Source: Clytia hemisphaerica
Taxonomy: Eukaryota; Cnidaria; Hydrozoa; Leptothecata; Clytiidae
Length of the DNA stretch: 64,000 nt
NCBI GenBank assembly: GCA_902728285.1
Contig: CACVBU010001147.1
Coordinates: 597,466-661,465, forward strand
Direction of reading: 5' to 3'
Part shown: piece after piece, positions 40,267-58,200 of the stretch
Layout of the letters: each line of letters opens with the position of its first letter
How positions within the stretch are numbered: the stretch's first letter is position 1
Translations under genes and position numbers: made by a program
Notes under the pieces: model-generated
Databases searched by the model: none
What the model was told of the DNA's origin: nothing
The model's input: only the letters and a program-made list of their open reading frames with translations

Positions 40267-43200
40267 ATGGCGGACCAAATGGCTGAGGTAAATGCCACGA
40301 TGAACGAGACTGCAGCCAATAAAACATTATCAGGCAGGGCTGCTGCCACCCCTGAGGGGTTGCTACTTGCATATGCAAGTCTTATACTTATGGCACTCCT
40401 TCCTATTTGGTTTGGTTCGTTTAAATCCGTCATTTTCAATAAAAAGCAAAAGGTATATAATTTTTTTAATTTTATTTATATTTTTAGTATTTGGGCATAT
40501 TCAACTCCAGAGGTGCTGCAAGTGTGCAATACGGTAACTTTGTGTAATGCCGTCATACCTTGTCTAATTCTGTCATAGCAACTATCTGGTCTTTAAAATG
40601 TTTATATAGATAAAACCGTGAGCAGTTAGCCACACTTATTAGCGTCCCGCCGAAATGCGCATCAAAGATAAATGCTGCGAAAGCGCTATATTGTTTACCC
40701 GACTCTCAAGCAAAAAAATGCGCTGCAAAACTTCTCAAGGGATTCATGAAAAATAACCCGGCGCTTTTTAATGAAATTAAAATTCTCAAAAACTATGAGA
40801 AATTGCCTAAAATTTGAGCCAAGCCAACCTTGAGAACTAATAGACCTTTTTTTAAAGAGGCAGCCATGTTGAATAATTATGTACTCCAGCATAAAAACAA
40901 TGATACAGCCGTGCATAATTTTTTAAATATGCATGATACAGTAATTATGCATGGCTGTATCATTGACATTGTTTTTATGCTGCTGGAGTCAGTCAGGACC
41001 TCTTTGGTCTTTTCTAACATTAGTTCGGATAGGACCCTGCCGACGCACCGGACTGTCCGGTGTATTTGTCCGGTGGCAAAAGTATCCTTTTCCACACCGG
41101 ACATGACGGTCCGGTGTGGATGTCCGGTGTTGCAAAGGGGATACTTTCAACACCGGACATCTCTGTCCGGTGTATTTTCCCGGTGTCAAAAAACACCGGA
41201 CATCTAAATTTCGAAACCTCTTGACACCGGACAAGCAACATCGGTCCAAGCTTTCCGTGTGCACGTCCGGCGTGAAAAAGCAATTTTTTTAAACATCGGA
41301 CATACATTTTCATTTCTAAACTTTCAGCGCTAAGAATGCCATTTTTAATATGCGTTTTAACTTGTAGATTGCCAATTTCAATCTTAACCTAAGAATACTA
41401 TAAGAATATTTTTGTACGATTTTCGCCAAAAAGTTAAGAATATCCATGATGAAATGAAAAACACCATTCTTATAAAAAAAGCGTGTTTTACACGGACGGT
41501 AGCATCGTTAACACAACAGACACACACGTCACTGGGCTTCAGCAGCACTGATCGAGCGGCTGTTAATTTGCGCACTTGAGGTTATTTTCCTTATTTTTTT
41601 CGAATTCGCCTTTCTTTCATGCAAACAACAAAATGATACAGATTTAAATTAGATTGAAAATAGCGTCCCCACCCGCCGCGCTTCTATTTTTTACAAAAAA
41701 TAGAGAACGTACTTCAAAATCAATAAAAATACTACATTGCGTCTGGCTCGCTATCGTAATACTTCGCTAAGCGAAATTAAAAAAAGCTTTAGAGCTAAAT
41801 GCGCCAAATTTTCTCAAATTGCAATATTTTTCCCAATTCATTTTTGCGTTATTTTTCCTTTTCTCCCACTGTAAGAAAATAGTAGCATTTCTCTTTTTTC
41901 TAGGAACAAGTTTTCGGAAAGAACTGAGTTTGAAATGACTTGATACAACTAAAAATATTATCATAACTAAATCTGAAAAATCCTTATTATAACAAAGAGG
42001 CAGGAAGGTTGCTTTCGCTGGCTGGGCCACGAAGACCGAATCATTCTAAGAGATGTTGGTTTGTTTAGTTCCAGCTTTTCTTCATTTAAATATACATAAC
42101 TAGTTTATAAATAAAAGCAAGAATGTTGTGTTCCCTTGATCACAAAATATTAGTCATATATTGAAAAAAAATCACATCTGCATTCTTATGGGAATCCAAT
42201 ATCTTCTGTTGATTTCAAAGATTGAAGCAACTCATTTGCAAGGGCATTTCTTGTTCCGTAATTTTGAAATTCAAAAAAATAAAGACAAACCAGTTTAGGC
42301 CCTAAGCCATAGTCTTCAACAAAACCATGGTTCATTTTCCCCGTGTAGAAAATAGTTGTATTTAGAATTTCCCCACTGTCTATGTACTTTGAAACTATCC
42401 TGCAGACGGAAGCAGGCATCATCCCGATAGCTCTTTCTTCAGTATTTTCGTCATCTGCAGGGGAAAAAATTTTCACAGCATTCGAATCGTAAATGTTATG
42501 AGGTTCTCTTCGACAAAACAATATTGCCTCCTCGCTTGGTTTGTATCGAAACTCGTGGTAGCCATTTGCTGTTGCACTCAAACCCAAATATGACTGCCGC
42601 TGCCATTTCTTTTTGATTCGGTATTGGTTGTAACGTACAATGTCGTAATAATGGTCTGTCTGACTTACGACAGATTTTAAAAAAAACACCCTGCTCGTTG
42701 TTTTAGCTACATGTTTTTCGTGATCCATTGCAAAAGATTTGCTGATTTCCCACGTCTTTCTTTCAAACAAATCGCTGTTATTCTGAACACAAATTAACAC
42801 TCTCCGACGAGGTGAAGATTTTTTTCTTCTGCTATTTTATTAGTAGACGTCAATTTTTTTCTTTTCTGCAAACGCTGGCCTATTTGGTCTGATTTGAACT
42901 TTTGAAACAAAAGGAGTCTACTACTTGAAATGTACAGCAAGACAGTCAACAAAATTATATCGGTGTGTTTTGTCTGATACTAAGAAAAAAAGAGCAGACA
43001 GGACAAACAAAGAAGAAAAATCTGGGAAACTATGGAACAATTGATCTATGGCGTCAAAAACAAAGACACAAAAGAAAAAAATGAAAAATGATAAAAGGAG
43101 AATCTTTACGAATTCGAATAGTCGTCTCCTTTTTGGTGAGTTTATTTTTATGCTATCACATGGCAGGAAATTTTTTTCTTCATTAACACTGCGTCTTTCT

Positions 43201-46200
43201 CTGACCAAAGTCACCCGACAAGGTAAGGAAAAATGTTTGAATGTTTTAAGAAATACGGAGTAAGTTAAGGCTTTTACTCAACAATGACTAATAGTGATTG
43301 TTTGAAAAACTAGTGGGTCATAAAGTCTACGATGAAACAACATTTCATTTAAAGATGTGAAAGTACCAATTGTCGTTATTAAATTTTGAATTAATAAACT
43401 ATAGAAATAATTAGGTGTTTGTATTTATAAAAACAAAAATTTAAGGAGTAAATGAAATTAATAAAAGATATAGAAACTGTATACAGTAATCTGTTTTTAT
43501 TTTAGAACCACGATGGACCAACAAAATTTTGTCGAAGACACCCAAGATAAAATTGAGGTATTCCTCGTTGACAGCCAGTACGTCTCAAACGCAAGTCAGG
43601 AGACCCAATCACTTTTTGACGAAGGAGAAAAAATCGCTGAGATAGAACTGGTCCCTGAAACGCAATTAGACCAAGACCCAGAAAAGGTATCAATAATTCT
43701 TATTATAAATGTCATTTTACCATTTTAAAGTTTAAACTACAAAGGTAAATCTTAAATTCTTAAGGTGGGAGTCACATGAAGGATTGAGAAAATTGAAATT
43801 TTACATTTTTCATCATATCTTTTGAAGCAGAAAAGATTTCTATATGAAACTTTCCAGAAATGTAATATAACTATAGAGAATGTGAAAAATCAAAAAAAAA
43901 TTCTAAAAATAGCCAAGACGGGGGTAATATCAGCCAGGGGGTAATGCACTATCAAAATACTATGGCAACCTTTTAGAAAAATCTATGAAAGCTATTCCAA
44001 AAATTTTTTTTGGAGGTTGCTAGTAATTGGATAAGCTGTGGAATGAATGGAAATTTTTTTCAAAATTTCATTCCAGGGGGTCTGGAACCCAAGAAATGGA
44101 AAATTTAAGTTTTTTCGAGTTTTGAAATTTAAAAGTGATTTTTTCAAAAATCTACTCCATTCATTCCATAGCAAACCATATACGGAGCAACTCCTGAAAA
44201 TTTCATGATCATAGCTCTTTCCAATCCTGAAAAAACGTTGCCAAGGTGTGCGAAAACCCCCTGAAACCTATTTTGAGAAAATGGTCCGTAAAGTCAGAAG
44301 TGAGATATATATCTCTATTTCTCTGTAATAAATCAACCGTTTTACAAAATTCTTTCTGTGTTTGACTAAAATGGAATAAAGTACTACTTTATATACTTTA
44401 GAAAGGGCTCTGAAATACCAAAATAGTCCAGAAATTCCAAATTATCACTTTCACGTGATGCGCGCCAATCCTTAAATTTTGCGCCAAACTCCACGTCAAC
44501 ATCGATTTAAGTCAATTTTAATGTGTTTTCACAACAAAAACCACATTTTCAATGTAATAGATCATCCCTAGTATATTTTCCTCACTGCATCTGTCAGTTA
44601 AGGTTAATTTAAGTTTATCTGTAGTAATACAAGAATCCACTTGGACGTTGGACATCACGCCATGCACAATTTCTCCTCGTGAATGTAATAATCCAGAGGG
44701 TGTCCCAGACCTTCATAATTCATCACACACAATTGTTAACCAGCCTCCAGGCTTTCAATATCTTTAACACTTGGATCTTTGAATAGATACATCATTAAAT
44801 ATGCCTTCGGTCCATTAAAATTTGTTCTTCGAGGTTTTTCGGTGTTCATCAGAAACGTTGAGTTTGGGAATCAAGTCTTTGGTTTCACCTAGCTCAAGCT
44901 TCCTTAGTTGGGAAGAATGACATTAAAGAGCTAAAAATGTCATCAGTCAGTCCAACATTTCCAAATTAAAACAGCTTTCATAGTCAAAAACACTGCTGAC
45001 AGCCTACAAATTTTTGTGTTTTTTAAAAATATTACTTTTTTGGTTACCATCTTTAATTACGTCATATTAGGAAATCCCGCGGAAAAAAGGCGGTAGATCT
45101 TTCGTTTGGTATGTCATGATCCTATGTTTAGATCAGCGATAAAGAAGTTGGGCTCTAGCAACGGGTATGATTTTTCGTTGCTAAGGAAAATACTTCAGAT
45201 CAGGGTCTAGAAAAAACCTTATATCTCAGGAAATATAAATGCTACGGCCTTAAAATTTTCAAGGTGGGTTCAGAAAGGGTATAGGGTCATGAAACGCGCA
45301 AAATCTCGAAATCGATAATTTTTTCACCAAATCTCAAAGCTTCATGTGACTCCCACCTTAAATGTAATTGAAATAAAGAGAAGAAGGTTTTATCCCATTT
45401 TGAAATGTGAAAGGTCCGATCTTTTCGCCTACTTAATTCTAGTATTTACACTTCCAGGGCGATGCCATTTATATCGAATCGGGAGATGACGAACCTCCCC
45501 CCAATAAAGAGAAGGTCGACGTTGTTAAGGAAGCCAACAAACGAAGGGAGGAAAATAAGAAAGCAGAATTGAAATGCTGCAACAAATACTTCCGAGACAA
45601 AGCCGACTTCGATCGCCACAAACTTTCAAAACATACCAAAGACGAAGATTTACCGTACCGTTGTAAGTTGTGCAAAAAGGGGTTTGCGGTTGGTTATCGA
45701 ATGCGAAACCACGTCAAAACTGTCCACAACAAAGAATATAAATTCAAATGCTCTAAATGCAACCAAAAATTTCAAAGGAAGGGTAGATTGGAAAAACACA
45801 ACGCAAAATGCGCAGTTTAGTCATTAGTTTTTTATTTGTAAGTTAGTTCTTAGTTCTTTATTTTTATATTTGTAAATAAGCCTCTTTTACTTTTTTATCT
45901 TTGGCCTGGATAAAAGAAATTCTCCACTGAAATACCTTTTGTCAATTTGACCTTCTGAAACAAATCTTCGCTCATTTAATACTTAGTATTAAATATTATT
46001 AATCTAGTTAGGTCGCTGGCTCTGAATGCTGAAAATGGGTTAAAATACACGTTTTTTTAAAGAAACACACTTTTAAGAAACATGATCAGGCTGAAATTAA
46101 GAACTTACTCTCCTCATTTTTAACATAACATAAGGCTGGGAACGATAAACTTAATAAACATCTTAGAAACATTTCAGGCTGAAATCGATGATTTCTTAAG

Positions 46201-49200
46201 ACTGAAATTTGGCAAAACTTTAAGAACGTAGTAAGAACAGCTAGCCTGAAAATTGTCATGACGAAATATGCTTACAAAATCTTTTAAATCTTCATTCAAT
46301 ATGTGTAGATGTAAATACCTCATCATAGTGGGCACCCCCCCTGGATTCAGGGGGGGGGGTTGAGGATTTTCAGATTTTTAAAAATAGGTGGGGGTTGGGT
46401 TGATGAGAAATTTCAGGTGGGGGTAACCCTATGTAGGTGGGGGTAACATTTTTCAGGTGGGGGTTGTCAAGTTTTCTGTATTTAACTTCGTTTGATTTTG
46501 TACTTTTTTGTCTTTTTCAACTTTCCACATACTATACTAGATAAAAATATAAACAAATGACTGTCATAAGTTCTGAAGGTTAAAAAGAGTTCATTTTTTC
46601 TCCAGTCTTTTCCTTTCCAGTTTGTAGTCCTCAGGACTTTTAACTGGGATCTTTAGTGTTCCTAAAAGGAACAAGACCTCCAAATTCGAAGGTGTGATTT
46701 GATTGCGCCGTTTTGCGCATATGAGTTGGAGTATGGTGTAGCCCCTTTCTACAGGCGAGGTTGCTGAAAAAGGTGGGGGTTGGGCTGATATGAGATTTCA
46801 GGTGGGGGTAACCCTATGTAGGTGGGGGTGACCTTTTTCAGGTGGGGGTTGGAGGGGTGTTGCCCACTATGGACTCATCTTTTCTTCACACCCAACCTTC
46901 ATAACAATAAATTTACTTGATTTTGAAGCCAAAAACTAAGCAATTATCTTTTTTTCTTGATTTGATTTCAAGAACATCAATAATTTTAACATCAATAACG
47001 TCAATAATTTTAATACTCAAAACTTTTCAAAGCAATTATCTTTTTATCTGAAGAAAGTCAATAAAAATATTTTAGGCTAAAGAAGTTCTGAAAAAATAAG
47101 CACACCCAGGTTTAGCCAAAATTAAGATATTCTAATAAAAAAAATAAAGACCCATAGGAATTTTAAGAGGGTACACATTAAAAATACGAAATGTGTTATG
47201 AAGACTTCACCCTTTAAAAAAAAACAAAAAAAAAACACTATGCTTATAAAATAGAGTGAAAAAAGATCAACAAAAAAGGCTCTCATACAATTTAAAAAAA
47301 AGTCCTCTAAAAAATAAAATGTATACTCTCGGGTACCTAATTGGAAAAAATCTCCGAACTTAATAAGCGGGGGGGGGGTGGAATGAAAATGTTCTGGGTG
47401 GAAAATTTTTGAAAAGGAGGCTAATGCAGCTGAATTAGGACAAAAAAGGGAACTTTCAAAAACATTTTCCCAAAAATTAATAAGCGGGGGGGTTGGAATA
47501 AGAATGTCCTTGGTGGAAAATTTTCGAAAAATTAATTAGCGGGGGGTGGGGGGCGGCTATTAAGTATCCGAGTGTATTGCTAGTTAAATTCAACCAGTAC
47601 AATCGATGCAAGTCCAATTTTCATGGTTGATTTCTTCACCGATACAGCATTCGTGAAAGAGTTTGATATGACAAGAAGCGTTGGCACATCTGACTAGAGA
47701 ATCTAGATTTGCTTTCTGGTCACAGAAACAGATCGACGACGAGTTATCTTCGATATTTTCTTTACACTCTGCACAAAGCCATTCTCCCCGTGGTAGCGAC
47801 TTCATTTTAGTACATTTTAAATGGAAGAAACGAATAATGCAATCTTCCTGTCGAGCACATTCCATAATATTGTTGAAGGATTCTAAAAAAAATTATATGT
47901 CAATAATATTCCTTGCTAGTAGTATTTCAAAAAATGCTATTATCTCGAGAGTAAGATCTTAACCTTTGTTCAATACGACCTAAAAGTGACAAATAAAAGC
48001 TGAATTTTCTTCAGAGGTGCATCCTATTAAATGTAATAGTAGGGGCCACTATGTCTTCCCATGTGTAGAAGCTTGTTAAAAGGGATCTTATGATTGAATA
48101 TTGTCCATTATACATAGAAGATCAAAATTTGAAAGGTGGCCTTGGCGATCACTTGTTGCCACGTGACGTGACGTCATTGTTTACCATGGCAACAAAAACA
48201 AACTCTCCAAAATTTTTGTACCAATCGATAGAGCATGAAACTAAGATTCAAAAAAAGGTCATAACCTATATCTGAAAATACAAACACATCAGGAAATATT
48301 AAGGAAATAAGGCTCGGTGACGTCACCATAAATGGTGACGTCGTCAAAAAATCGAAAATTGTCGAAATTTAAAATCTTTTGTTTCATTGGCCTCTCAAAT
48401 TTTGATCTTCTATTATATAAGGAACAATATTCAATCATAAAATCCCATTTAACAAGCTTTTGCACACTGGAAAGCTTTTTTGCGACATTGTGGCCTTTAC
48501 TTTAATTGTGCACAAAAAGGTATAACAATTGAAGTCTTACTCAGCTTCCCACAAAAGCAGTAATGGTCCATATCCTTGCATCTGGGACAAACCCAATTTT
48601 CAGGAGCTGTTCTTTTTGGATTTAACCCGACACATTTCATGTGAAACCATTCAATTTTGCATGAAGGTTGTGTGCATGCAATAAAACCACCAGCAACATA
48701 CCAACCAGGTTCTCTGCAAAAGCAGTACCTTTCGTCGTCAGCTTCTTCCATGTCAATGTTATCTGATGGCTTAATACCTGGAGGAATTTCGTCTTTGATC
48801 TCTACAATTTTTTCATTGCCGTCATAGGAGATGTTCTTGCATTCGATCTAAAAAATCAACATCATTTATTTGCAAAAAAAAACTAAAACTAGTTTAAGCA
48901 TATGAACTAAAAATTCAGGCTCAGTTATACGATTTTCTAGCAAGGATTAAAATTTTCTTATCAGTTAATGACCCTAAAAACAACAGAAAACGAGAACTTT
49001 CAGACTCACCTTTTTTAAAAATAAATCTGTTAGTGGTGAATAATAATTGAACGTGAAATCAGGAGTGGCATAGTGAATCTGTCCATTTCGTTGACGATAA
49101 GGCACACCAATGAATCTCACATTCGTTAAATTGTCTGTAACATTGATAAACGTTTTGTTTCGACAGAGTTGCAATACCTCAATGACACCATAAGTTTTTG

Positions 49201-52200
49201 AATAGAAGAAATCACCGGGACTTAAAATCACGTCCATCTTATTTTCAGCTTCATCTTGCCAGAATCTCTTTGTGTTCCTTGTTCCACTGACCTTTCCTTT
49301 GCCCCTTTGTTTTACCACCGTTACATATTTGCTAGCCGTCATAATCTTACCATCAGCAAAAACGTGGAGAACCTGAAAATACAAAAAAAATCAAAAGTTG
49401 AATGTTCTAACAGGTTCCATAATTAGTCAGTTGAGTTAAGTATTGTGACGTCATTTCATTAGTTGTAAAAATTTATGAACTTATGCCCTTGTTCTTTGGA
49501 ATAAGGCTAATTCAGACTGCTCTCTAAGCCCGGGGGAGGGGGTATACTTAAGCACTGGTCAGGGTACCTTTTTTCACATAGAATCCCATTCAGGGTACTT
49601 TTTTCACAGGGTCTCAAAAACATGAAAATACAAAAATCAGTCCCTGGTAGAGTACGTTTTTGGGAAAAATGTAGAAAATTTTGGATTTGTTTGAGAAAAT
49701 TTTGGAACCTCAACTTTTAGAGAATGCAACAGAATGTCTTTGCATTTTAAGGATCAAAATATTTTATTTCAATGCTTTTGACATGGTACCTTGCTTTTGT
49801 TGATTAAGCGGTTTTCGATATTATTCACTGGAACCATTGCATAGTTTTGTCGAAAACATCCAACAAAAGTGATATCAGTGATTGCAGATCCTGTATCCTT
49901 AATCTTGAATCCTTTCATTCTATCCTCTGATGATTTAATCTACAAATAAGAAGTAGAAAACTCAGTTTATAGATTCCCCGAACTTAATTATCTGGGTAAG
50001 AGTCGACTAGTTTTAAAACACTATCAGTCTATTAACCACAATGAAATGAAAGTGTAAGGGATTAATCAATTTACGAGATTTAATAATGAATGCATAGATA
50101 CCTGATACAATGGATTGTCTTTCAACAAATCATCCATTCCCAGAATCTTAAAATCGGCAACAATTTCACGATCCACAATCTCTAAAACTCTTAACAAATC
50201 TTTCAGGCTCCAGTCGTGACTGAAGAGTTTGGGATGACTGGACTTTGATGGTTCTTTTGGATGCTTCCAGCAGCTAGGCTTTTGACGATTGCGTCTATTT
50301 GAAATGTTTCCTTAAATAAAAGGTAATATAGATAATTTGGCTAAATTTACTCATCAGGTCTAAAGAGACTTTGATCTGTGAAAGATCTAAGGTAAAACCT
50401 TAAATTTTCAATTACTATTGCAAACAATGTTCAACGAAGGTCAAAATTTTAAATTTGGTGCGCATGGAAACACAAAACACCAGACCAGAGTCCCACAAAA
50501 AAAACTTTCCTGGAAATACCTCTGATTTCAACGTTTTGTTGGGCAGTTATCTTTGATGTACGATCCAAGTATTCCATAGGAGTAAATTCGTCATCATTAC
50601 CAAATTGAAAGCTAAAATACAAAACAGCTGTAATATATCATCCTATTGCTACCATACAAGAACAACTGCAATTCGGGGGACCCTGGGTGGAAAATTTTCA
50701 AAAAAATTAATTAGCAGGGGATGGTTATTAGGGACCGGACAGTAATCATCCTTTCAGAAGATTTGATTGAAAACATAACTGATTATTGATTAATGTGTAG
50801 GAAGTGTAACATGATTTCTGTTGAAGAATTCAATGGTGTTGATGTGAAGGATTAATTAAAGTACTTAGTGGAAGGGATAGGAGTCTGAACAGGTCTGAAC
50901 TCCCCTTTTATATTTTTTATTTTTCTCTATGAACCTATCCCCATTTTTTTAACCAGCCCTAATTTTCTCCGTATTTTGTAACATAAAAAAAAACTATGAG
51001 ACACAATAGGACAAAATTTGATAAGAGGCTAAAAAGGCTAATTCTAAAGATTTGAAAAGAAAGTTATGCAACTTTCATTCATATGTTTGAATTGTCATTA
51101 TGTACAGGTATTGTCATCTTTGGAAATACTGAGCCATAACCACAACTTAAACTTGGAATTTCCTGCATTTTCAATTGATTTTTTTGGCATTATGTTTCAT
51201 CCCCTCTATAAACCATTCTATGGAAAGTGTGATTAAGGGGGTTCAAACTATGCAAAATCTCTGATAAAAAAAACATATCTTTACCGCACTGAGCTGTAGT
51301 GGCGTTCAACAGGATACTCAGACCATTTCCAACCCATGAACGGGAGATTTGGGTTGAACAGCTTGAAAGTGATGGCAAGATGTACCAAAGAAGAACAAAG
51401 AACAACAGTATCTCGATAAAGTTCCATTGTAATGAAGCACGACTTGAGATTCAACTTTGATAGAGTTATCCATTCTCTCCACAAATGCATAACTTTACAC
51501 ACAAAGTAACAATCAGCGATTCTTTCAACCATAGTGAGATCAGGATTCCACCAAGCTTCAAACCCTTTCTTTGCGAGGAAAATAAAAAACATAGTTCCTT
51601 TACCCCAATGTAAGGTTTGCAGTCCACTGAGGCATTCATTCGATATAAGCCTTTCAGCAGACTCTTGGTCAGTCTTGTTATGCACTTCAATATCGGTTTT
51701 TAACAAGCCAAATTTTGACCCCATTGAGTAGACATCACAAATTGACTGGAATACAACTGGGTAGTTACCAAATCGTAAAGGTTTAGTTGAAAGTGTAGAT
51801 GATTTTGTGACCTTGCGCGTCCAATGCATCTGGTCTTGAGTGGCACATCTTGGAAGACCTCCAATAATTGGGGCAGACATATTGAAGATGTCTGAAAGAC
51901 AAAGAATACCAAGATAAAAACTGATACTCACATTTTTATCATCAGCAAAAGGTTGTGTTGGGGTGGAGGGAAGATGTTTTGAAATTGGGTTTCTGACCAT
52001 TTCACTTGCTGTGTAGACATAGTGTGCTACTTCAAATGACGTTGGGAATCGAACCTTCCAGCCATATAGTTTTGCATCTTCAACAATTTGGTGACTGGTT
52101 GAAAGTGGGTTACACTTTGACGGCAGGATATTTGTTTTTGGAGAATACCCTGTGATGGTTAGCATTTGTCGTCTAAAACGGGAATCTCCATCTGCAACAA

Positions 52201-55200
52201 TTTGAATGATGGGTATTTTGAAGTAATTACACATTTTGAGAATATTGTATGATAGCAATTGGTGATCTTGATGTTGTAGATAACGGTTATTGGTACTAAC
52301 AACAGCAGTTTCTTGGACTGGTAGGTTGATACAACAATTTGATATGATTATGGAATAAACATAGGTTGACAGTGGTCTTTTTAGAGCATCACTTTCTGCA
52401 ACTATAACATCAATATTTTGTGCTATATCATTATCGGGCGAGACTTTTGGAAGAGATTCTAAAATTTGTATTTTGTAGAGCTCATCTTCGATTGATAGAG
52501 CCTTTCTCCAATCTTGATATGTATGCAACTGAGCATATCCAATGAAATAAGTGTCTTTTAGGTTTTCAACTTTGACGACACCACAAACTGGTTTCCTTGT
52601 TTTACTATCAGATTGAATAGCAAAATCCTTGAGATATTCAATGACATCAAATGTTTCTGATACATTTCTAATGACGATGAACCTAGGCATTGCAGAATAC
52701 CCATATAAACAGTTCTCATGTTCATGGAATTGAACAGATGATTTTGTAGCTGTCTCATCTATCATCATGTTTCCGAAAAAGCCTATCTCTTCTAATATTA
52801 TGAGACCTTGATGCCAGGGTATATTTTCTGTTTCAATGGGATCGACAAGCGGGTGTATACATTTTTCTGATTTTCCAGATATGTGTCTGCACGATCTCTC
52901 AACAACAGCTGAAAATATGGGTAGAAATTAAATTAGTACCATCTCAAAAAAAAATGTAAAAATTAAAAAGACAAGTATAACAGCTGTCAAATACAGCAAA
53001 ATAAACTCATGAAAGTCATTATTTAACTAAAAAAGGATACATTAAATGATGAATAATGTTGGATATTGACCAAAGTTAACATACATGCTGGATTTTTCTT
53101 TTGGAATTAATTGCCAGGGTGTTGAGAAAAGAATGTCTTGGGTGGAAAACTTTTGAAAAATAATTAGCCGGGGGCAACTATGAGACCAGAGAGTAGTCAA
53201 GATTTTAACAATTTTAAGACATAGGAATATCAATTTCTTTGCCTTCTCTTCTCTAAGATTGCTTTGAAGTTTTTAGTGTCAATGCATGGAACCCCAATAT
53301 GATGGAGAACAACATATCCAAAGGCAAATTTGATTCAGTACATAAATCATGTATACTACTTTTCCAAGAGCTTGTGAATGGTGTAAGTGGTATTGGGTAG
53401 AAATGAGTTTGAAATTTCAAGATTTTTTGCCCCCTTACGCTTTTTCCTTGGCTAGTTCAAAACACGGGTCACAGCACGGGTCCGGGTCACGGGGCATGGG
53501 GCAGCTCTGATTAAAGTAACTCGAACAGAAATTGTTTTAAAAATGCTAAAAATTATCGAAAAAATCAATTTGAAGGTGTTTTATCCACGTATGACTGTTT
53601 GAAACGTCAAAATCTAACCACGTGCTTTCGAAGTTTGCGCCGTGTACAATACAGACCAGAAAATAATAACGTAAAAATGATGGTAATTTATAAATGCGTC
53701 AATATTTTCCACCTACCATTATAAATTTTTAATAAATAAAAATGACGTAATTATACTCATATCTCTAAAACCACTATCTTGCAGCATTTAATCGTTTTTA
53801 AACATGCCAATCTATATCCAGTCATATGATTAACATCCTATTGTGTATGAAAAAATATTTTGCTGTAAATTGGTTCAGAGGCCTTATATTTCATGATTTT
53901 AACAATATTTTTGTCATTCAATATCATTTTGTCAAAATTTGTGGGTGACATATTATTTAAAGATTTTCATGATATGATAATACTATTTGTATATAATTGT
54001 TTCAGACATACTATACTAGTATAGTACTATTATCTGTGTTATGTAGTACGTGTTATGAATTATACGTCATGATATCGTTATATTTTTTCCGGTCTGTAAT
54101 TTGTATGCCCCGTGACCCTTACCCCGTGCCCCGTGTTTCGAACTAGCCGCTTTTTCCTATTTAAACAAAAAACTTGTTTTGCCAGACTATTTTAAATGTC
54201 AATCTTATATGTCAATGTTTTAAGACTTACCCCATGAAAGATCATAAACATTTCTTTCTTTTTTGCCTTGCCATTGCTCAACTGTCGATCTCCAAGGGCC
54301 ACCTAATGCTTCCGATATTCTGTTGAACACACGATGTGAGCAATTGTTGAAAACATCGATCCAAAAGTCCTTTTCCAACTCTGCAAACAATTTATTTTTC
54401 CGGCCAGAGTTCTGCAGCATAGTAGATATTAAGGACTTTTGCATGGCAGAAAGATTCGAACTTAGGACATCAACAACCAAGTCAGTACTCAAGACATTCT
54501 GGAGCATGGTTTTTTGAGTGTCCAAAGATGCTTGTAAGCTTTCAGCATATTCGGAGCATTCTGCCTTCTCCTTTTCCAACATAGATATCTTTCCATTCAA
54601 TTCATCAAATTCTTCTTTTTCCTTCCTCTTTAAATGCATAGCCTCAAATCGAAGATTATCATTTTCTTGTTTAAGTTTCTTTATTGTATCATCATAATAT
54701 GTTTCTTGACGAACACAAGGTGTTTCGTTATCTGGAGCTTCATTGTTCTCTTCACTTGTGGTTAATGGCTTAGGAATCTTCTTATTTGATGTGAAAAATG
54801 ATGTTACACATTTTCTTTTAGGATTGCGTAAGTTTTTCTCTTGTTCTTGTTCAAGCAAGGTCTTCAGCGAGGGTCTACCAGGTTTTTTCTAATGTTTAAA
54901 AGAAAAAATAGACAAAATAAGGATACTATAGAACATCCAGCTTTGACCAGGTAAGGAATCAAAATACGATTCGATTTTGATTTGAAATAATATTCATCAA
55001 TAGAAAAATATTGATCTGCTCACATCGACTAACAGTTTTTACCTTACTCTAATTAGATATCCCTCTTACAACAAGAGGACAGTAAAAATACTAACCTTGG
55101 CACTGTTTTTATCGTGATCATTATTTTGGTCGTCCATTAATTTTTCAGATTTATTTTTATCAATTTTGTGGCTATGGAAAAGAGAAAATCCTTGTCAGAT

Positions 55201-58200
55201 GATATAAGTATAAAGTCAGTCAAATAAAGCTCTCCAGGTTTTGGAAAAAAACTGGAAATTCGATATATATTCTTAATTAGGATTGAAAAACAAAGGGATA
55301 ATCCTAATTAAGAAAGTCCGTGCGATCGAAAAAAATATGCTTAATTAGGATAGAACTCCTGACTGAGTGTAGTCTATAGTAACCACAAAATTTTTTGTAG
55401 TATCCCCAGAAAAATGGAGTAAAGATGGCAAAAGATAAAGAAAGAAAGAGGAAATCTAATTTTTCCGATTTATTTTGGATTTTTTGGAAACTTTCACCTC
55501 TACTTAGTAAATGCAAGGTAAAAAATTGTGTGTTCAAAACATAACACAATGGTGTCATGCAGAAAATAAGCCTAATTCTAATAAATAAATATGTACAGGC
55601 AGCAGGGGTCGACTCAATACTGTCAACTTGGGTTACTTTCATCAACAAAAGGAAGAGGTATAAACTTTCATTGTCTTTCATCGTTATTTATTATTATCTC
55701 CCCCCTCGAAAAGAAATGTGAAATGACAGACTTTTCTGGTCCTTATCAAATCATAAAAGTTAGAAGTCATAACCAGACTTCTTTACATTCATTTTAGCAC
55801 CTACTGAAACCATATTTGTAAATTTACAAGCTCCACCTTCATTACATTCAGTCTTTTTTCTTCCTTCTAATTTGTAACAAAAACTGACATTTTTGCTGCA
55901 GCGCTCCTGGTGCTTTCTTTCGGAAATGTTTTGATAAAATACAGACATGCTCAGACTTGCTCAGTAGAGTTCTCCGTTCTCTAACATACTAAGATCGATT
56001 TATCAATGATTATCGGGAGTAATACCAAGGTAAGTGTGACCGCGAAAGGCTAAAAAAAATAACGCACACCGGACACACCGGACTGGGCATGTCCGGTGTA
56101 GAGATTGTCCGGTGGTAAAAAGAATCCTCATTTTACACCGGACTTTCGCGTGTCCGGTGTTCGTTAAGTCCGGTGCGTCGGCAGGGTCCTGTTCGGATAG
56201 AATAAAAACATACCTGATCAACACAACCAAACCTTCTGTCTTGCGTTTACTCTTTCCTTCACAACAACTTTCGTTTTTGCTTATGTAGGTTTTAAAATCC
56301 ACAAGTAATGAACCTCTTATAGCTTTATCTGAATAAATCTGGTTGAAAACCTGCTATCAGGTTTCATTCCGTACGTTTTTTATCCACGTGGTGAACCGGT
56401 TTCCCCGATTTCCCGATAATTAAAAATTGGAACTTTCCCGTGGGCGCGATTGGGCGTACCGTCATCGCAAAATATTTTTCGTGAAAATTTACCGTATTCT
56501 AACGCTAATATAATCTAGATAGGAAACAAATATTAAATTTGACTCTTTTTTGCTCGTATTTCTAAATTTTACGATAAAAAGAACTATTTATAAATTATTT
56601 TCTTTAACGGGCGTTGAATCGATATTGACATATTTAATCATGTCATAATCAATGCCGTGCATATTTTGTCAGTGTCGTGCATATTATGTCAACATCCTTT
56701 TCATTGGATAAATACCACTAAAATATACAAGAAAAGTAAACATAAATTTATCGCCCGCGAGCACGGCTTAGCTAAGCGCACCTCTCTTATTCATTATCTA
56801 AGAATTGGAGCGGGCAAAGATTACCGTGCGGGCTGATAGCGGGCAAAGGTTATTTGAAGATTTTTTCAGTTATAATCCAAGGTAGAACAAACTAAACATA
56901 GAAAGGGGGTATTTTTTAGTGCTCTATACGATGATCGGTATTTTTTTTGAATTCTATGTTTAGATTTTTCTACCCAGCCCCGTTACTATGTACGCGCGCC
57001 TTGTTGCTAAGACCTTTGCTTGAAATCGAAAGTGAAACCAAAATAATTTAGCGCAAACTGCCGTTTGCGTAATATCGATAAAGTGAAATGAGGTCCTGAC
57101 TGGCTGGAGTACATAATTATTCAACATGGCTGCCTCTTTAAAAAAAGGTCTATTTGAAGATAAACTTCCCAAGAAAAAGATCTACAGGGGAGACGGAACC
57201 CACCTAGATCCTTGCACTGCCGGATAGGGTATTTCCCGGAAATTTTGCTGGACCTCAAACACTGACCATATTCATTTGACAACGCAAAACGTCAAATTGA
57301 CGTTATGAGGGGGTGGGGGGGTTTTCAAAAGTTAGGTTTGACGTTATAAGAAATCAAAGGTATACCTTCTTGTGAAAATCGCAGATACTTGTAACCACCA
57401 ACCACACTACACTTTATAAGCTTTCGAAAACATATTCGTGTATGAAATACATGAAAATTTGCTGCTCGCATAATCCCATTGGTTCGCGCTATGATATCAT
57501 TACATCATATTTTCATTGTTTGCGCGGTTGAGCATTGAGCGAACCACATCGCACAAGTTGGCAAAGAAGGTGGTACGCCTAAAGCACGGAACGGACCTAG
57601 CGCCAAGTGAAGCTTTTAATTTCTTTTTAAAATAAAAGTCATTAGTTAAAAGAACACATACACGCACGGGTACAACCAAGTACAGACTTTGTGACGGAAC
57701 GGGAAAACTTTGATGAAAAATGGCTACAACTTTTGGTATACATCAGTACATTGCTTGACGTTTTCTGTGGGGGGGGTGGGGGGGTTCAGAGGATAACGTC
57801 AATTTGACGTTTTGCGTTGTCAAATGAATATGGAAGGGTCCCCTTACATGTGTGGAATTGTTTTTACTTTGTAGCGTATAAACAAGGCCTTAAAAATCAA
57901 AGTGCTGTCTCGGGAATTGAATGACAAATTTTGGTTGGTTGATTTTGGCTACTGCACGCTGCAAACTTTCAAATTTTAACTATAATTGTCTTGCTAACTT
58001 GATTCAGGTCCAGGTAACTCTCATCCTTGTTGCTGCAAATACATCCTGTAGATGACTAATGTTGTTTTTTCTGAAAGCTTTGTTTCCTAGTGTGACTAAC
58101 TGGTGAGTGGTCCTAAATCCGACAGCCCTGCCTAAGCTAAATCCGACCCCCCAAATAACTGTTATGAAAAAAAATTCTATGTTTACAAACATTCCCTCTC

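Follow-up and report, generated by a model that had tools for sequence, protein, structure and literature searches.

The stretch of DNA analyzed here (the window) comprises 64,000 nucleotides of the Clytia hemisphaerica genome, contig CACVBU010001147.1, and contains a 15,160 bp DNA transposon, inserted in intron 1 of a signal peptide peptidase gene. The element carries three genes, which encode a HIRAN protein, a C2H2 zinc finger protein and a transposase. It is probably an intact and potentially autonomous cut-and-paste transposon. With its three genes it would be a giant member of a group that is distantly akin to P elements; it is P-like, not a canonical P element. A first-pass annotation of the window had placed a 16-kb multi-gene transposon at 40839–57154. 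The multi-gene DNA transposon in the host intron was confirmed, whereas the borders had to be moved inward, to the GGACCC inner repeats that form the true ends at 41031 and 56190.

The segment 41031–56190 is a real DNA transposon that transposed as one piece, generating 8-bp duplications. Its 24-bp terminal inverted repeats (TIRs; AGGACCCTGCCGACGCACCGGACT) are perfect, as is the flanking 8-bp target-site duplication (TSD; GTTCGGAT), which the first-pass annotation had overlooked when it reported no clean duplication. The window holds exactly two occurrences of the terminal 14-mer GGACCCTGCCGACG, in inverted orientation (41032 on the plus strand and 56176 on the minus strand), against a chance mean of 0.05 with up to two mismatches. 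The subterminal CACCGGAC clusters, which had already been noticed together with the inner repeats on both sides, amount to 17 sites (10 left and 7 right) versus 0.39 expected, far above chance. A search of the genome assembly (417 Mb, 951 contigs) located a second copy of 13,761 bp, C850:10030–23790, which shares the TIRs and is flanked by a perfect 8-bp duplication of its own, GAGGTTAT. The two copies are 97.9% identical over 12,662 aligned columns. The long blastn alignments between them begin at 41031 and stop at 56190, and two short TIR-to-TIR matches overrun by 1–2 bases.

The alignment of the empty site, suggested at first pass, was performed with a 220-base query that joins the left flank, one GTTCGGAT and the right flank, with the junction at position 110. 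The join matched at least 41 places in the genome, each from join position 52–70 unbroken across the junction to position 220 with 94–100% identity; 40 of 956 candidates were scored, which makes this count a lower bound. These places are uninterrupted copies of the repeat that hosts the element, and the empty site is therefore demonstrated. The joined flanks of the C850 copy yielded 26 matching places, nine of which extend across the junction (eight covering join positions 75–220 and one 75–152).

The inverted outer border copies reported at first pass do exist (40839–40890 and 57103–57154, 52 nt, 100% complementary), and this perfect pairing is what would favor a single 16.3-kb element with these repeats as its ends. 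That reading is contradicted, and we assign it virtually no probability. The 22-nt form of the outer repeat end is present in 1,736 genome copies (864 + 872, versus 0 for the reversed control), and the first 100 listed places include 13 head-to-head pairs no more than 400 bp apart, 11 of them spaced 153–178 (pairs were picked by eye and spacings recomputed). In addition, the alignment with the gene-carrying C850 copy is confined to 41031–56190. Copies of the outer repeat are uninterrupted elsewhere; the element therefore landed inside this separate, high-copy repeat. This nesting accounts for the unequal arms, correctly described at first pass, and for the missing outer duplication. Within the host repeat, the left arm is broken by a small hairpin-like repeat at 40887–40988.

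The element family has shorter derivatives. The 14-mer GGACCCTGCCGACG occurs 885 times in the genome, and the first 100 listed places include 29 head-to-head pairs, of which 14 are 345–347 bp long. Two of three miniature inverted-repeat transposable elements (MITEs) with the element's ends that were checked have a perfect 8-bp duplication. The 5′ and 3′ ends of the MITEs at loci L002 and L004 best match the left and right ends of the window element, respectively; at L006, one end of the MITE fits the window right end and the other has no good counterpart on either side. The L004 MITE (1501–1861; 363 bp) has family TIRs without a clean 8-bp duplication. Both types of border thus also occur as short paired repeats, which at first pass had been named as a finding that would speak against the element, but the genes do travel with the inner borders, both in C850 and in the C832 element described below.

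In the window copy, none of the three gene models is interrupted, in agreement with the first-pass description of intact genes. The HIRAN and C2H2 proteins both score above the Pfam cut-offs, the latter matching PF00096 with E 3e-6. The spliced nine-exon transposase model is open throughout, with a single terminal stop. Its N-terminus is AT-hook-like and coiled-coil-like. The description of this protein as a triple PHD with a DDE-like core was borne out in part: the first PHD finger matches ING4 in the PDB (E 1.2e-9), but the PHD signal is under the Pfam cut-off (E 5.7e-4) and the catalytic triad is a candidate only. The core has no match among Pfam transposases, PHROGs or PDB sequences.

A more divergent element at C832:1463806–1480519 has a related TIR, ACGACCCTGCCGATTCCCCGGAC, and carries CCCCGGAC where the window element has the subterminal motif CACCGGAC. 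It contains all three genes in the window order and orientation, with identities to the window proteins of 41–71% by exon for the transposase, 39% for C2H2 and 44% for HIRAN; two extra transposase matches (28% and 37%) arise between PHD copies that do not correspond. At the ends of this element no target duplication can be seen, because an outer MITE copy abuts its left end. Its right end was found again at two sites on C256 (L017 and L018). These are internally deleted copies of the C832 family with the same right end and an open HIRAN frame, and in both the transposase and C2H2 genes were lost through one shared deletion.

The three-gene cassette is conserved across a family of copies. All aligned pieces listed by the searches with the three genes (61, 48 and 121) were merged into 55, 29 and 91 loci. 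Among pairs of loci within 30 kb, the window arrangement is seen in 6 of 6 transposase–HIRAN, 5 of 6 transposase–C2H2 and 10 of 13 HIRAN–C2H2 pairs, compared with 0.23, 0.38 and 0.72 pairs, respectively, expected if the loci were placed at random. Sequence comparison also indicates purifying selection on the transposase (C832/C635; synonymous divergence dS 1.01, nonsynonymous dN 0.092) and on HIRAN (window/L011; synonymous pS 0.77, which is saturated, nonsynonymous pN 0.185). The recurrent cassette contradicts the view that nested repeats with fortuitous gene fragments make up a defunct composite here, as do the exact TSD with its empty site and the three open models of the window copy. The window copy does hold other insertions, for example at 43760–45361, and the C850 copy is damaged by one transposase stop, a 10-nt HIRAN insertion and a 1-nt C2H2 deletion, the latter two being frameshifts; nonetheless, such a composite is very improbable.

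The HIRAN and C2H2 genes could alternatively be captured host genes, passengers with no role in transposition. The element is large, transposons can pick up genes, and HIRAN is present in another repeat family as well. However, the same two genes recur in the same order and orientation in a family whose transposase exons are 41–71% and accessory proteins 39–44% identical, and at other loci, and HIRAN is under purifying selection in the measured pair, so we regard a passenger status as distinctly unlikely. The other repeat family is represented by four sites (L020–L023 on C341, C128, C378 and C225) that share a common, different end (...TACTCGACTGT) and a HIRAN protein ~ 43% identical to that of the window.

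The element resembles P element, THAP9 and Pdre2 in its 8-bp target duplication, TIRs, subterminal inverted repeats and internally deleted non-autonomous copies. For P elements, the 8-bp TSD, TIR and subterminal repeats are given in an excerpt of PMC7776569. Duplications of 8 bp flank the window copy, the C850 copy and two of the three MITEs, and none was seen at C832. The transposase shares with P the succession of two acidic residues, a DxxH motif and a glutamate. The candidate D, D and E residues are conserved in the window family and in a sister group of transposases that lacks the RRM-like insert (L081–L084 on C870, C212, C308 and C700), although the predicted fold is of low confidence. 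The C308 sister copy lies within a 1,098-codon open frame. The DxxH motif is DQMH in the window protein and DHIH or DTVH in the sister group, and it follows the second aspartate by 119 residues in the window, 41–45 in the sister group and 36 in P. A [C/D](2)H motif behind the second aspartate is probably not restricted to P. P transposases have a GTP-binding insertion domain between beta5 and alpha4. A fold search with the sister group gave one stand-out match, 6p5a, which covers the helical insertion domain and places the DxxH aspartate at D339.

The differences from P are also substantial. The element is 15.2 kb long versus 2.9 kb for the P element and has two accessory genes, and its transposase has the N-terminal features described above, the RRM-like insert and three PHD-type fingers. 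It may instead represent a separate, undescribed RNase H-like transposase superfamily, in which the P-like helical insertion domain reflects deep common ancestry or convergence. Besides the insert, the PHD fingers and the accessory genes, this alternative draws on the unmatched core and on the spacing between the first two aspartates, which is 189 residues (110 in the sister group) versus 73 in P. TNP-like domains are abundant in the genome, yet the window contig is not among the matches listed (150 of 247 candidates were scored, and every listed match is over the cut-off). The window transposase has no match to PF21787 (TNP-like RNase H) at E up to 1; the sister protein scores E 0.17 and 12.6 bits, below a cut-off of 24.6, which is a detection threshold and not a biological feature. 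No THAP domain was found at E up to 1 across the 1,245 aa transposase. The 6p5a match, with its coverage of the insertion domain and position of the DxxH aspartate, and the 8-bp TSD, the TIR and the subterminal repeats, which P has too (excerpt of PMC7776569), argue against a separate superfamily, which we consider rather unlikely, and for the P-like assignment.

Other transposon groups show partial likenesses. hAT transposons also have an 8-bp target duplication and subterminal repeats, the latter being described for Ac/Ds and Kat1. However, no hAT Pfam domain was detected at E up to 1 with the whole protein or at E up to 0.5 with 18 core segments, and no hAT transposase appears among the first 50 fold-search rows, in which P ranks first. 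A Kyakuja-Dileera-Zisupton (KDZ) transposase domain was likewise undetected at E up to 1, and DNA polymerase B and capsid genes of Polintons or DNA viruses are absent from the three gene products scanned. RAG/Transib-type systems partner a PHD finger with the transposase (RAG2), and ISL2EU, like PIF/Harbinger, encodes two proteins. Ginger has a PHD finger attached to the transposase (PMC2836005, in part), and PIF/Harbinger encodes two proteins (PMC2836001, in part) but differs in its 3-bp TSD (excerpt of PMC2213677) and its transposase, with no Pfam match in the window element. The same three-gene set is in no paper among the matches listed from the open-access literature.

A mechanism can be proposed. 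The transposase, with its candidate triad D284, D473 and E768, would recognize the TIRs and CACCGGAC sites, perhaps aided by the C2H2 protein, and by DDE cut-and-paste chemistry the element would be excised and inserted at target sites cut with an 8-bp stagger. Short MITEs that share its ends would be mobilized in trans. The excerpt of PMC7776569 describes an unusual P chemistry, with a GTP cofactor, 17-nt 3′ single-stranded extensions and transposase contacts to the looped single strand, and the HIRAN domain of HLTF binds 3′ single-stranded DNA (PMC7214843, in part). Because such ends are left by P, are bound by HLTF HIRAN, and HIRAN is kept beside a P-like transposase, the element's HIRAN protein is by analogy a good candidate for a 3′-end partner. 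If P-like cutting leaves long 3′ single-stranded ends here, HIRAN might hold, protect or hand over these ends, with the RRM-like insert as a possible contact for the single strand. The ING-like PHD finger may direct new insertions toward H3K4me3-marked chromatin close to active promoters; the window copy, which lies 578 bp into the intron, is a single case that fits such PHD-guided targeting. Since the subterminal motif differs by family, a binder encoded by the element (transposase or C2H2 protein) may have diverged in step. Taken as a whole, a P-like clade with a three-protein machine, comprising a transposase that reads chromatin and has an RRM-like insert in its catalytic core, HIRAN for 3′ single-stranded ends and a C2H2 protein co-evolving with the motif (CACCGGAC or CCCCGGAC), is a possibility that we put forward tentatively.

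P elements, ~ 3 kb in the fruit fly, are the textbook example of a small transposon of eukaryotes with a transposase gene only. A five-fold larger relative whose HIRAN and C2H2 genes have been kept through deep divergence suggests that dedicated partner proteins help to handle and recognize the ends, and an ING-like PHD on the transposase suggests chromatin-guided target choice, for which RAG2 offers a parallel. These ideas can be tested within a single genome, which holds an open and a broken copy of the element, a divergent family and related ends in the hundreds.

Table 1 Features of the transposon and its host repeat in the window.
Feature	Position	Strand	Remarks
Transposon	41031..56190	.	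15,160 bp; defined by TIRs and TSD, blastn limits against second copy, paralogous empty sites
Left TSD	41023..41030	.	GTTCGGAT
Right TSD	56191..56198	.	GTTCGGAT
Left TIR	41031..41054	+	24 bp, AGGACCCTGCCGACGCACCGGACT
Right TIR	56167..56190	-	24 bp, identical to left
Left subterminal cluster	41046..41232	.	10 CACCGGAC sites, both orientations
Right subterminal cluster	56067..56175	.	7 CACCGGAC sites
HIRAN protein ORF	42186..42836	-	216 codons; first ATG 42728, 180 aa; Pfam PF08797 E 2.2e-8
C2H2 gene exon 1	43513..43686	+	
C2H2 gene exon 2	45458..45820	+	protein 178 aa
TTAA-ended insertion inside C2H2 intron	43760..45361	.	about 1.6 kb; inverted repeat TTAAGGTGGGAGTCACATGAAG...; missing from C850 copy
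Transposase gene	47590..55137	-	9 exons, 1,245 aa; splice sites from sequence, all GT-AG, frame kept
Transposase exons 1-5	55137-55096, 54888-54231, 52908-51285, 50611-50520, 50310-50102	-	
Transposase exons 6-9	49939-49790, 49372-49010, 48847-48541, 47882-47590	-	
Transposase exon 3	51285..52908	-	core with candidate D284, D473, DxxH 592-595, E768; RRM-like insert at ~ residues 309-384
Transposase exons 8-9	47590..48847	-	three PHD-type zinc clusters from residues about 1087, 1142, 1199; third read from sequence
Host repeat, left part	40839..41022	.	outer border at first pass; interrupted by small hairpin repeat
Host repeat, right part	56199..57154	.	outer border at first pass

The insertion inside the C2H2 intron is probably a later TTAA-target element, because the C850 copy does not have it. 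A 555-bp stretch of the element with repeated AGGTGGGGGT motifs (46325–46879) is also missing from the C850 copy. The host gene, which we take to be HM13, was identified as a signal peptide peptidase from later exons at about 60.8–62.1 kb that match PF04258 (E 2.2e-17 and 2.5e-28); its exon 1 ends at 40452, as read from the sequence. Just outside the host repeat lies a perfect 41-nt inverted repeat (57266–57306 and 57793–57833, 486 nt apart), probably another MITE.
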